64,000 nucleotides of DNA from Hymenobacter sp. BRD128 (GTDB taxonomy: Bacteria > Bacteroidota > Bacteroidia > Cytophagales > Hymenobacteraceae): assembly GCF_013256625.1 (NCBI RefSeq), contig NZ_CP053908.1, forward strand, positions 310,001 to 374,000, written 5' to 3'. The notes under the pieces are model-generated. The model did not search any database. It saw nothing but the letters and a program-made list of their open reading frames with translations, and was not told where the DNA came from. Position numbers and translations under genes: made by a program. Below, piece by piece: positions 45,937 to 50,003 of this stretch. Each line of letters opens with the position of its first letter. Positions within the stretch are counted from its first letter, which is position 1.

Positions 45937-47454
45937 TCACTGGTGCACGAATGCCCGATACGCGCCGGCCTTGCTCAGGCCCCGCTCTTTGAAGCTAACC
46001 AACCCCAGCCCGAAGCCTTGCCAATAATACTGCCCGATGCAATAGTGCCCGTCCGGCTCCTGCTCCAGACTAAGCACGTAGGTGCGTCTTTGATGAGCTA
46101 TTAATTTGAAATATAATAACTTATACGCCAAACGCGAACCGCGCCAGCGCGGCTGCCACCGCCCGGCGCTGTCGAGGCTATACACGAAGAGCCGCCGCTG
46201 CACTGTGGTATCGAGCGGCGTGCGTTTGATGGGACCGATAAGCAAGTCGGCCTGCCCGTCCTTATCAACGTCGCCTTGCGTCAGGCGGTACAGTGGAAAA
46301 CCCAGCGGCAATACAGCGTCCACATCACCGGTGCGGGCGCGCACCTGATACTCGCGGCGGTGAGGCAGGTAGCGCAGACGCACGGTGGTACGGCTGTTGC
46401 CGGGCCCGGTCAGCGTGAGATGCGGCACCAAGTAAGCGGGCAGCGAATTGGCAGTAGGGACGGTGGGCCGGGCCAGCCAGCCAGCTGCTTCGGAGGCAAG
46501 AATGGCGCTGCCATCGGCTGGCGTGAGACGCTGCGTTAATTGCTGCCTAGTGGCGCCAGCCAATTGCGGAATGGCCCCAGCGAGCTGCAACGGCCGAAAA
46601 TAAGTAGCCACTACCCAGCCCTGGCGGCAATCGAAATCGACTTGCGCGGCCAGCGAAGTAACGCCGCCGCGCTGGTCGAATAGAAAATTTCCCAGGCTGT
46701 ACACTATCGGCCGGCCCCGGTAAAACTCCACCGGCTGCACCACGTGCGGGTGCGCGCCCACCACGGCCGCCGCGCCCGCATCGAGCAGGTCGTGCGCCTG
46801 TTGGCGCTGCTCGGGGCTGGGCTGAGCGGCGTATTCGGTGCCCCAGTGCAAGTACACAAGCACGGCTCGCTCCGGAAACAGCGTTTTATACGTGGCTACC
46901 CGCTCGCAGAGCGTAGCGAAGTCGCGCCCGCACACGCAGCCCTCGCCCGCTAAGCCTTGCCGCAGTGCCGAGAAAGCGAATACCACCACGCTGCTATCGG
47001 CCCCGAGCACGGTGGGCAGGCAGCCGGCTAGCGAGTCGGGCTGGTAGCCCAGCGGCCCTAGCCGGGCCGCTTTTGCGGCGCGGGCGGTGGCCCGTAGGCC
47101 GAGCAGGTGCTGGTCGAGGGTGTGGTTATTCGCCAGCGAAAAGTGCGTGAAACCCAGGCTGTGCAGCCACGCCGCCCAGTGCGGATTAGCTTGAAAAACA
47201 AAGACTTTGTGAACTGGCTGGGCCGTGTCAGTGAGCGGGCATTCCAGGTTACCGATGACGTACCGGCTGCCAGCCCACAACTGCCGCGTGGTGCGGCGCA
47301 GGGCGGCGCTATCGCGGACCAGGGCGGCGGGCACGGCGCGGGCCAGCAGCACATCGCCCACTACGCTCACGCGCAAGGGTGGTGGGGCCGGGGCTTGCGC
47401 GTGGCAGCCAGCCAGGGCCAGCAGCCCCAGCCAGCAGCGCTTAAAAATCCGCAT
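45937..47454 (-). CDS. CapA-like lipoprotein (PGA_cap metallophosphoesterase-fold family)
   Basis: A 505-residue protein. The start MRIFKRCWLGLLALAGC is a lipoprotein signal with lipobox ALAGC. VSVVGDVLLARAVP, YVIGNLECPLTD, and FSLANNHTLDQ are metal-site motifs of the CapA family (poly-gamma-glutamate synthesis and related proteins); VGAHPHVVQPVEFYRGRPIVYSLGNFLFDQ completes it. The last 170 residues are beta-rich and unassigned. Its ATG overlaps the end of dnaX by 14 bases, suggesting coupled translation. In this setting it may act on an envelope polymer rather than gamma-PGA. Confidence 0.88.
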   Translation of the reverse strand: MRIFKRCWLGLLALAGCHAQAPAPPPLRVSVVGDVLLARAVPAALVRDSAALRRTTRQLWAGSRYVIGNLECPLTDTAQPVHKVFVFQANPHWAAWLHSLGFTHFSLANNHTLDQHLLGLRATARAAKAARLGPLGYQPDSLAGCLPTVLGADSSVVVFAFSALRQGLAGEGCVCGRDFATLCERVATYKTLFPERAVLVYLHWGTEYAAQPSPEQRQQAHDLLDAGAAAVVGAHPHVVQPVEFYRGRPIVYSLGNFLFDQRGGVTSLAAQVDFDCRQGWVVATYFRPLQLAGAIPQLAGATRQQLTQRLTPADGSAILASEAAGWLARPTVPTANSLPAYLVPHLTLTGPGNSRTTVRLRYLPHRREYQVRARTGDVDAVLPLGFPLYRLTQGDVDKDGQADLLIGPIKRTPLDTTVQRRLFVYSLDSAGRWQPRWRGSRLAYKLLYFKLIAHQRRTYVLSLEQEPDGHYCIGQYYWQGFGLGLVSFKERGLSKAGAYRAFVHQ

Positions 47455-49441
47455 CCAACCCTAGCCGCTGCTTCATTTCCTGCAAGGCGGGGTACTTCTC
47501 GGCCAAGTAGGCAAACTTATCGTTGGAAGTGTAAAGCTTGCGGCCGGTGGGCGCCGCACTAGCCACTTCCGTCTGCACCGTGAGGCCCGGGTGGCCGGTG
47601 CGGCGCCGCAGCTCGGCCATAAACTCGGCCCGAAAGTCGTTAAACTGCACGACCTGCACCGGGTTATCGACGGTGAGCGTGATGACGTGGCCCGCATCAG
47701 CTGCCACCGGCCGGTTCAGCACCATAAACTCGCTCATCTTGTCCTGGGCGCGGCGCTCTTCGGCCAGCTGCTGCCACACGGCTTGCAGCAGCTCGGGGGC
47801 AATGGGGGCTAGCGGGCCGGTGGGGGCCGGTGCTGCCGTTGGCTCGGCGGCGGCCGGGGTGGCGCGGGCGGCGGGCGCAGCAGTAGGCGTGCCCACATCG
47901 CGTAGGCCAGGCAGGCGGCTGCCTAAGCTGGGCAGCTTAGGCAGGGTCGGCAGCGGAGCGGGCGCGGCGCTAGGGGCCGCAATGGTGCCGGGGCGCACAT
48001 CGGTGGGCCGCTGGGTGGGCTCCAGGCCCTGCATGCTGGGCCGGCCGGTTTCGACGTGCGGGAGGGTGTCGCGTACCTGGTGGCGCGGCGTCACGGGCTC
48101 GCTAGCCTCCGGCTCAATGCTGGGCGTGGCATGCAGCTCAACTACGCCGCTCTCGACGGGCAGCGGCTCAGGGCCATCGGCAGGCACATTGGTCTCGGGC
48201 GCTTCGTTGAGGGGTAGCGCCTTGGGAGTTGGGCTAGCGGCGGGCAGACTAGCCGGGACCGGGCTAGCCGCGCCGTTAGCTAGGCTGCTAGTTTTTTTTT
48301 TAGCCTCGCCAGTGGCGGCGGGCGTCAGGTCGCGCACAAACTGCACGGCGCCATTGAGATACGCCAGCTTCATGAGGGCTAGCTCGACGTGCAGGCGCTG
48401 GTTTTTGGCTTGCTTGAACTCGCGGTCGCACTGGCTCACCAGGTTCAGGGCCGAGAGCAGGAAAGGCAGGGGCGCGGCCTGGGCTTGGCGCACGTACTGC
48501 TGCCGAATATTATCCGATACTTCCAGCAGCTGCACCGTCACGGCGTCTTTGCACACCAGCAGGCCGCGCAGGTGCTCGGCGGTGCCTACCACAAAATTAT
48601 GCAGGTCAAAGCCCTGCTGCATCACTGAGTCGAGCAGCAGCAGCGCCTGCGACAGGTTTTCGCGCAGCAGCGCGTCTACCAGCCGGAAATAGTAGTCGTA
48701 GTCGAGGATGTGCAGATTTTGCACCACCTCCTTGTAGGTCAAGTTATTGCCGGCAAACGTTACCTGCTGGTCAAACATCGACAGGGCGTCGCGCAGGCCA
48801 CCGTCGGCTTTCTGGGCTAGCAGGTGCAGGGCGTCATCGTCGGCCGCCACGCCTTCGCTCGTGGCCACGTAGCGCAGGTGCTCCCGAATGTCTTCGACCC
48901 GGATGCGGTTGAAGTCAAAAATCTGGCAGCGCGACAGGATGGTGGGGATAATCTTGTGGCGCTCAGTGGTTGCCAGAATAAAAATGGCGTAGCTCGGTGG
49001 CTCCTCCAGCGTCTTCAAAAAGGCATTGAAGGCCGCATTCGAGAGCATGTGCACCTCGTCGATGATGTAAATCTTGAAGCGGCCCTGTTGCGGCGCGTAG
49101 CGCACCTGCTCCACCAGCGAGCGAATGTCCTCGACCGAGTTGTTCGACGCCGCATCCAGCTCGTGCACGTTAAAGGAAGCGTTTTCCTGAAACGCCACGC
49201 ACGAGGTGCACACGCCGCAAGCCTCGGCTTCGGGCGTGAGGTTGGTGCAGTTTATCGTCTTGGCCAGGATGCGGGCGCAGGTGGTTTTACCCACCCCGCG
49301 CGGCCCGCAAAACAGAAACGCCTGCGCTAAATGCTGACTCTGAATAGCGTTCTGCAGCGTGGTAGTGACGTGCTGCTGCCCCACCACGCTGCGAAACGTG
49401 ACCGGACGATATTTACGAGCCGAAACAACAAAATTTTCCAT
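47441..49441 (-). CDS. dnaX: DNA polymerase III subunit tau/gamma, with A10 slippage tract
   Basis: Clamp-loader ATPase of the replisome, 666 residues (tau). Walker A GPRGVGKT is at 46-53, a zinc-binding cysteine cluster (CGVCTSC) follows, the Walker B IIDEVHM region comes next, and ILSRCQ is the arginine-finger segment. The collar domain ends at about residue 370; after it comes a Pro/Ala-rich linker and the C-terminal tau region. A run of ten A (coding strand; plus 48292-48301) starts exactly at codon 381; slippage by one base either way brings a stop within about six codons (KKKN* or KKKLAA*). That would give a gamma-like protein of about 385 residues. An in-frame start further upstream is rejected as it overlaps ssrA. 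Confidence 0.95.
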   Translation of the reverse strand: MENFVVSARKYRPVTFRSVVGQQHVTTTLQNAIQSQHLAQAFLFCGPRGVGKTTCARILAKTINCTNLTPEAEACGVCTSCVAFQENASFNVHELDAASNNSVEDIRSLVEQVRYAPQQGRFKIYIIDEVHMLSNAAFNAFLKTLEEPPSYAIFILATTERHKIIPTILSRCQIFDFNRIRVEDIREHLRYVATSEGVAADDDALHLLAQKADGGLRDALSMFDQQVTFAGNNLTYKEVVQNLHILDYDYYFRLVDALLRENLSQALLLLDSVMQQGFDLHNFVVGTAEHLRGLLVCKDAVTVQLLEVSDNIRQQYVRQAQAAPLPFLLSALNLVSQCDREFKQAKNQRLHVELALMKLAYLNGAVQFVRDLTPAATGEAKKKTSSLANGAASPVPASLPAASPTPKALPLNEAPETNVPADGPEPLPVESGVVELHATPSIEPEASEPVTPRHQVRDTLPHVETGRPSMQGLEPTQRPTDVRPGTIAAPSAAPAPLPTLPKLPSLGSRLPGLRDVGTPTAAPAARATPAAAEPTAAPAPTGPLAPIAPELLQAVWQQLAEERRAQDKMSEFMVLNRPVAADAGHVITLTVDNPVQVVQFNDFRAEFMAELRRRTGHPGLTVQTEVASAAPTGRKLYTSNDKFAYLAEKYPALQEMKQRLGLDADF
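48292..48301 (-). promoter_or_regulatory. A10 slippage tract in dnaX
   Basis: Ten consecutive T on the plus strand (A10 in the message) encode Lys381-Lys383 of DnaX plus the first base of the next codon. Both alternative frames stop almost at once. Confidence 0.65.
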
Positions 49442-49630: not shown

Positions 49631-49999
49631 GGGGATGACCGGAATTGACAGCTTGCGTAAGTCGCGGGTAAGCGTGCCGGGAGTTGATGGAAGCTCTCCC
49701 GCCAAAAAATCTATCAAACAACAACTGGCGACTATTCGTACGCCATGGCTGCCTAGTTTAGAACTACGCACTGCCATCGTTCCACTCGGGTAAGTTTTTA
49801 CACCTGGGAGTCTGGAGCGTCGTAAGTAGAAACTAGCCGTCGAAGAGCCGTGATTCGGCGGCGAAACCCAACTGCGGATAAGGGAAGTTCAAGGGCCTGA
49901 TGTGCGCCTGGACTTCTTCGAAAAATCAAGCATAGATACGCACGTAGAAAGCACGTCGGCTTCCTTGTCTGGACCAGGGTTCGAATCCCTGCATCTCCA
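49631..49999 (+). ncRNA. ssrA: tmRNA (trans-translation)
   Basis: The 5' end GGGGATGACC and 3' end GGTTCGAATCCCTGCATCTCCA form the tRNA-like domain: acceptor GGGGATG pairs with CATCTCC, and the T-arm is GGTTCGAATCC. The discriminator A is 49999 and CCA is not encoded. Near 49725 the reading frame GGC GAC TAT TCG TAC GCC encodes the tag GDYSYAMAA followed by TAG. The 369-base length is normal for a one-piece tmRNA. Confidence 0.96.
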
Positions 50000-50003
50000 C
50001 TTT

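Follow-up and report, generated by a model that had tools for sequence, protein, structure and literature searches.

A conserved A10 run in Hymenobacter dnaX as a probable transcriptional slip site, and related sites in other Bacteroidia

The dnaX gene of Hymenobacter sp. BRD128 carries, past the part encoding the collar domain, a run of ten adenines closely followed by stop codons in both non-tau frames; the run is conserved throughout the genus, and the near stops in most of it. The A10 run is probably a programmed transcriptional slip site at which gamma, the shorter dnaX product, would be made alongside tau, and a predicted RNA hairpin lies directly upstream of it.

The A10 run in dnaX of Hymenobacter

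In the 64-kb stretch of Hymenobacter sp. BRD128 DNA analyzed here (the window), dnaX matches the NCBIfam models PRK14971 (776 bits, cut-off 685) and TIGR02397 (435 bits, cut-off 250). Its coding strand reads GAG GCT AAA AAA AAA ACT AGC across the run, the plus strand being T10 at 48292-48301. The initial annotation had placed ten adenines after GCT, past the collar and within Ala-Lys-Lys-Lys-Thr from codon 380, which the coding-strand sequence and a collar end at residue 363 confirm. It had further predicted that either slip would truncate the protein to about 385 residues, and eleven A indeed give 384 amino acids ending in KKKN, nine A 386 ending in KKKLAA. With the clamp-loader and collar parts preceding the run and TAG in both other frames (Table 1), the suggestion of a gamma-type truncation with stops on both sides is supported as well. 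A tmRNA gene (window 49631-50000, plus strand; tag ADKGSSRA) lies about 190 bases from the dnaX start, in the opposite direction.

Table 1 Features of the dnaX gene in the window.
Feature	Position	Strand	Basis
dnaX, DNA polymerase III tau subunit, 666 aa/codons	47441..49441	minus	ORF and NCBIfam
Collar domain, model DNA_pol3_gamma3, residues 238-363	48353..48730	minus	Profile match
A10 run, codons 381-383 and first base of codon 384	48292..48301	minus	Sequence
Predicted RNA hairpin, 3' end one base 5' of A10, -11.4 kcal/mol	48303..48323	minus	Folding
TAG reached after gain of one A or a -1 ribosomal shift; 384-aa product ...KKKN	48288..48290	minus	
TAG reached after loss of one A; 386-aa product ...KKKLAA	48280..48282	minus	
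Tau-specific tail, absent in both short products	47444..48291	minus	

The run is the sole A or T run of at least nine within the window, and at least as many nine-mer matches occurred in 10 of 100 dinucleotide shuffles of the window; counting both strands, the whole 4.88 Mb genome holds 21 runs of A≥9, which account for 27 nine-mer matches. Since the run is unremarkable by the window shuffles, the evidential weight lies on its conservation. Each of the 120 Hymenobacter genomes in the search, among them that of the window, gave a match, and the dnaX genes of 118 were taken, two weak matches (G095, G099) being left out. In the preset test of whether relatives keep the A-run, 117 of these genes had A9-A11 (106 A10, 8 A11 and 3 A9) and one had A8, with stops near in both other frames in most. 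That 106 of 118 genes carry exactly A10 makes a homopolymer read error, which the initial annotation had allowed for, an unlikely origin of the run. Four A11 genes are in frame, a neighboring codon supplying one A (L069, L115, L081, L100), and eight genes are out of frame: four with A11 (L080, L085, L118, L119), three with A9 (L088, L101, L116) and the A8 gene, L120. These counts, like those for the relatives considered below, come from related genes, and the values are not independent.

The surroundings of the run vary more than the run does. It lies 48-105 nt from the collar in 117 genes and 174 nt in L084 (genome G093), where an AT-rich in-frame insertion adds roughly 100 nt between collar and run, which is still A10 followed by CTAG. 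Elsewhere in the examined parts of Hymenobacter dnaX, lysine is encoded by AAA in 765 of 2359 codons (32%) and the longest other A-run does not exceed 6. In 102 of 117 genes (L084, with its run farther from the collar, was left out of this count), both non-tau frames meet a stop no more than 11 nt past the run, compared with 163 of 16146 downstream control positions (1.0%). Of the 15 remaining genes, 12 have the later of the two stops at 15-27 nt, and the others are L108, L121 and L120. In L108 and L121 a further frame break, unrelated to the run, is found in the dnaX tail within about 150 codons after it, and would reflect a read error or decay. A part of the genus also has an insertion near dnaX residues 58-70 that splits the alignment to the DnaX of the window (33 codons in G051; G051:C15:184807-184905).

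Spread over Bacteroidia and the frame of the tau tail

From the 67 genomes of the same family outside the genus, 49 dnaX genes were taken, 18 of genus g3 being left out. A10 was found in 32 of them (g4, g5 and g6, the last being Rufibacter) and A6-A7 in the remaining 17, which belong to the sister genera g2 and g3. Among other Bacteroidia, A9-A11 was present in 48 of 52 dnaX genes (27 best matches and 25 picked across families), and among named Bacteroidia records A9-A13 in 60 of 76, three Hymenobacter and one Rufibacter record not being counted; these records may partly duplicate species among the other genomes, and a gene whose 300-nt collar was identical was removed. Overall, 140 of 177 non-Hymenobacter Bacteroidia dnaX genes, of one-ORF and two-ORF form, have a run of at least nine. 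In 15 dnaX genes from other classes of the phylum, no A7 or longer run was found within 260 nt.

Outside the family, the run can start in any codon phase, with phases 0, 1 and 2 counted in 16, 56 and 36 of 108 genes. In four sets of genes, 109 of 117, 30 of 32, 39 of 48 and 50 of 60 had a stop no farther than 18 nt in each of the two non-tau frames, against 1.7, 2.1, 10.6 and 11.0% of the respective controls; the last two sets lie outside the family. We also compared the frame of the tau tail with that of the collar in the 257 genes having a run of eight or more, the tail frame being that with the best alignment score, which is not really callable in a few distant genes (e.g. L340, L343). In 213 of these genes the tail follows in frame; 38 would need an additional base and 6 the removal of one. 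Among the 38, L108 and L121 owe their frame to the second break, and four of the 6 are single Hymenobacter assemblies, which may be misread. The two-ORF form is common to all seven genes examined in f2. Following the argument made in PMC3711429, tails in both shifted frames favor slippage by the polymerase, because a -1 ribosomal shift serves one direction only; the weight of this argument is moderate, given that four of the six one-base-less cases are those single assemblies. The fewest ORF-state changes over 226 proteins came to 33, a number inflated where the tail frame of a distant gene cannot be called and where reads may be wrong.

Sixteen named records lack a run within 190 nt of the collar. 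Twelve of them are titled Bacteroidales or as a group within the Bacteroidales. The 16 also include L348, whose dnaX ends shortly past the collar, and L305, which has A10 at 274 nt from it. Two other arrangements were seen in genes without an A-run. In three of them, L335 and L342 with Bacteroidales in the title and L347 with Bacteroidetes, the collar is directly followed by a TAG in frame and then ATT-GC(A/T)-AGG, and the tau tail beyond the TAG is best matched in the same frame as the collar, making this TAG between gamma and tau a candidate for stop-codon readthrough or TAG reassignment; a pattern for the TAG-ATT-GC(A/T)-AGG site found no match in 395 genomes of the class. L319, L327 and L363, and in changed form L233, L236 and L354, share GGGCGTAGC or a variant of it directly past the collar. 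In L327 and L363 the sequence GGGCGTAGCCC is an inverted repeat, the -1 frame of which has a TAG, and this site is possibly a third kind of slip site.

Predicted hairpins at the run and the sites of two sister genera

Folding of the sequence upstream of the run yielded hairpins with a 3' arm reaching up to the run or close to it. When the best hairpin ending at each of 41 positions was determined per gene, the run start was the best position in Hymenobacter (mean -10.6 versus -3.5 kcal/mol elsewhere; n=117), g5 (-16.0 kcal/mol, n=8), g6 (-13.2, n=16), g4 (-6.9, n=8), f7 (-5.2 versus -0.7, n=19) and a mixed set (-2.9 versus -1.0, n=56). It ranked second in f2 (n=7), third in f4 (n=13), its hairpins stopping some three bases short of the run, fifth in g2 (n=2, -6.6 kcal/mol), 20th in g3 (n=15) and 25th, at background, in f5 (n=13); from the named records grouped with each, we infer that f7, f4 and f5 are of Flavobacteriaceae, Sphingobacteriaceae and Chitinophagaceae type, respectively. 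The share of genes in which at most one of 20 dinucleotide shuffles folded as well was 100% in g5 (8/8), 94% in g6 (of 17), 84% in f7 (of 19), 50% in g4 (of 8), 43% in f2, 38% in f4, 35% in Hymenobacter (40 sampled), 34% in the mixed set, 7% in g3 and 0% in f5.

For the gene of the window, 16 of 100 resamples gave an equally good hairpin, which is not significant in that gene alone. Within the genus, the hairpin is weaker than -6 kcal/mol in 14 of 117 genes and scores 0 in two. The Hymenobacter mean remained at -7.2 kcal/mol with resampled 5' arms (linker codons) and at -8.4 with shuffled codon order, so that much of the signal is due to the GC-rich 3' arm. Against resampled arms, 79% of the 117 genes beat the median and 32% had at most 5 of 100 resamples as good; for shuffled codon order, the values were 77% and 20%. 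Hairpin sequences differ between families. The fourth pair of the g6 hairpin is G-C or C-G, both sides switching together, in 15 of 16 genes (L189 breaks the pair), with the encoded residues changing too, and g4 is without this pair. In a joint alignment of g4 and g6, 93.5% of cells are paired compared with 35-63% when the alignment is slid, and covariation was as high in 440 of 500 shuffles. The suggestion that a hairpin tends to adjoin the run draws on its predicted position and on its recurrence with different sequences in different families.

The sites of g2 and g3 are built differently. Both g2 genes (L178, L179) have A_AAA_AAG and a two-ORF dnaX; the 15 g3 genes (L204-L218) have A_AAA_AAA_G, except L204 with A_AAA_AAG and a shifted tail, and tau is the shifted product in g2 and L204. 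The strongest hairpin of the profile lies downstream in g2 and g3 (-13.8 and -10.7 kcal/mol), ending about 30-33 nt after the run, and its stem begins about five bases after the heptamer. The spacer between heptamer and stem in E. coli dnaX resembles that of g2 and g3. For the 50 nt downstream, z-scores were -2.57 in g2 (n=2), -0.98 in g3 (n=15) and -1.01 in g6 (n=16); since that of g3 is no lower than that of g6, the ribosomal case for g3 draws on the hairpin profile and the near-constancy of the stem, which varies so little that covariation is uninformative. Judged from these features, the g2 and g3 sites look ribosomal, similar to that of E. coli, rather than like polymerase slip sites. Near stops in both non-tau frames are present in g3 as well, a point against reading such stops in Hymenobacter as a mark of slippage. 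In a family tree of 96 proteins, used as support only, the outgroups are long-run, 11 ORF-state changes are counted and the short run needs two changes; a single change is possible, because g2, g3 and the other members of the family branch off together in a polytomy.

Slippage by the polymerase, alternative explanations and meaning

In the proposed mechanism, RNA polymerase on the T10 template would hold an RNA-DNA hybrid made up entirely of rA:dT, which could realign; the hybrid measures 9-10 bp according to the available part of PMC5009743. The nascent RNA directly upstream would fold into a hairpin at the exit channel and should help the hybrid to shear, and a part of the dnaX mRNA would gain or lose one A. 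Ribosomes on slipped mRNA would then reach a stop one or three codons past the run, giving a gamma-type product of 384 or 386 residues that would keep the clamp-loader and collar domains and be without the tau tail, and mRNA with ten A would yield tau. What the sequences show is the run, the stops and their conservation, the domain order and the predicted hairpin with its position; that slippage occurs and at what rate, that the hairpin forms in the nascent RNA and assists, and that gamma serves the cell is inferred.

An unlikely alternative is -1 ribosomal frameshifting at A_AAA_AAA within the A10 run, as at A_AAA_AAG in E. coli dnaX, which would give the 384-residue product only. The heptamer is present in A10 in every phase, a -1 shift leads to the same KKKN end, its stop lies one or two codons past the run in nearly all Hymenobacter, and g2 and g3 of the same family look ribosomal. 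Where they do, however, as in g3, the adjoining hairpin is at background and the strongest hairpin lies downstream, g2 with its two genes and some upstream hairpin being less clean. In Hymenobacter, by contrast, no excess of structure was found in the 50 nt downstream of the run (z -0.19, n=117), and the hairpin profile at +27 to +36 is near background. A Shine-Dalgarno sequence is one of the two stimulators of E. coli dnaX frameshifting. GGCGAGG ends two bases before the run in the dnaX of the window, but Bacteroidia ribosomes, according to the available part of PMC9976891, fail to recognize ordinary Shine-Dalgarno sequences, very strong ones being used by a subset of ribosomes. Without a downstream stem and probably without use of an ordinary Shine-Dalgarno sequence, the polymerase is favored over the ribosome in Hymenobacter. 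Frameshifting also leaves open why the run is held at 10 though 7 would suffice for a -1 shift, why a stop is kept in the one-base-loss frame, and why tau tails occur in both shifted frames. Furthermore, refolding of a hairpin upstream of a frameshift site is described as attenuating -1 frameshifting in human cells (PMC6321510, available in part), and this, if valid here, would speak against the ribosomal reading as well.

The tRNA-Lys set was considered as a discriminator between slippage and frameshifting and was rejected. A pattern search of 23 genomes, drawn from slippage-like as well as frameshift-like genera, detected tRNA-Lys(UUU) as the only kind in every one, ARAGORN confirming 13 of the loci, and such a set would suit frameshifting too. 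A looser pattern for tRNA-Lys(CUU) in 11 genomes gave seven hits, about the control level and none of them a tRNA, and a gene missed by both patterns is possible. In Thermus, the presence of two tRNA-Lys kinds is given as a reason for preferring slippage over frameshifting (PMC5009743, available in part); with UUU as the only kind found, this argument is inapplicable here.

It is very improbable that no recoding takes place and that a lysine-rich linker and near stops coincide by chance. The linker is variable, and the run alone is not rare by the window shuffles; the constancy of the run, the choice of AAA codons, the two-sided stops in 102 of 117 genes versus 1.0% of control positions and the spread over the class all speak against such a coincidence. 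Hardly more credible is a read or assembly error, or variation of the run length in the DNA (phase variation), in place of slippage in the RNA. The 12 Hymenobacter genes (of 118) that deviate from ten A, eight of which are out of frame, would fit this, but the large majority of assemblies agree on A10, and the two-ORF form shared by all f2 genes examined would be expected from neither. Slippage by the polymerase is the reading we favor as probable for the A10 run.

The closest known system is dnaX of Thermus thermophilus, in which an A9 run, with a near stop in each of the two other frames, causes transcriptional slippage in a single tau ORF and about half of the product is full length (PMC5009743, available in part). 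The gene, the single tau ORF, the long A-run past the gamma part and the near stops on both sides are shared (PMC5009743, PMC1088944, as far as available). In contrast to Thermus, the run is A10 instead of A9, a predicted hairpin often adjoins it, of which the available parts of PMC5009743 and PMC1088944 make no mention for Thermus, and Hymenobacter has, by pattern, tRNA-Lys(UUU) instead of the two tRNA-Lys kinds named in PMC5009743. The proposal of a Bacteroidota counterpart of Thermus slippage is supported by the conservation found here, but the idea is not new to dnaX: a GeneTack study of 2013 reported 10 As in 9 of 17 two-ORF dnaX genes with poly-A and interpreted them as transcriptional slippage (PMC3711429, available in part). 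The arrangement in f2 and other two-ORF genes is like the one in that study; there, a slip is needed for tau, in the window for gamma, and the available part of PMC3711429 does not mention a hairpin. For a Roseiflexus IS630 transposase, polymerase slippage is described as being enabled by a stem-loop of the nascent RNA, formed from an inverted repeat immediately 5' of the slip motif (PMC5009743, available in part). The hairpin predicted for the window, a candidate for such a layout, ends one base 5' of the run with 16 of 100 resamples as good, and over Hymenobacter, g4, g5, g6 and f7 the run start is the best position; unlike the T5C5 motif of Roseiflexus, with its one-base deletion only, a homopolymer is expected to slip both ways. 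E. coli dnaX, with its -1 frameshift at A_AAA_AAG and a stem-loop, shares gene and outcome, and g2 and g3 have both heptamer and downstream stem; Hymenobacter differs from it in having a longer run and no downstream stem. Slippage in Thermus dnaX, two-ORF dnaX with 10 As and hairpin-assisted slippage in an insertion sequence are thus already known. Neither the adjoining hairpin, the class-wide spread nor the within-family change was found described in the open-licence literature, judged largely by title or start of abstract, which is weak evidence, and that literature yielded no example of hairpin-assisted polymerase slippage in a core replication gene.

A wider reading is offered tentatively, with somewhat less than even confidence. 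A composite slip module, consisting of a nascent-RNA hairpin and A9-A11, would make gamma and tau at transcription in much of Bacteroidia dnaX; the tau tail would have drifted between frames repeatedly, because the polymerase can slip either way; and one or two genera of the window's family would have swapped to a ribosomal module, in which A_AAA_AA(A/G) is followed after about five bases by a stem-loop. The upstream hairpin kept to some extent by the two g2 genes weakens this reading.

These observations suggest that two-ORF Bacteroidia dnaX genes, which could look short or broken, are intact. They also provide many natural variants of the gene, with a slip site that hardly changes amid changing surroundings, bearing on why gamma arises by different routes, and two apparently different mechanisms that can be compared directly within one family. 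If the adjoining hairpin works, it would constitute hairpin-assisted polymerase slippage in a core replication gene. If the wider reading is true, recoding of this gene would have moved between RNA polymerase and ribosome within one bacterial family, while its outcome stayed the same.
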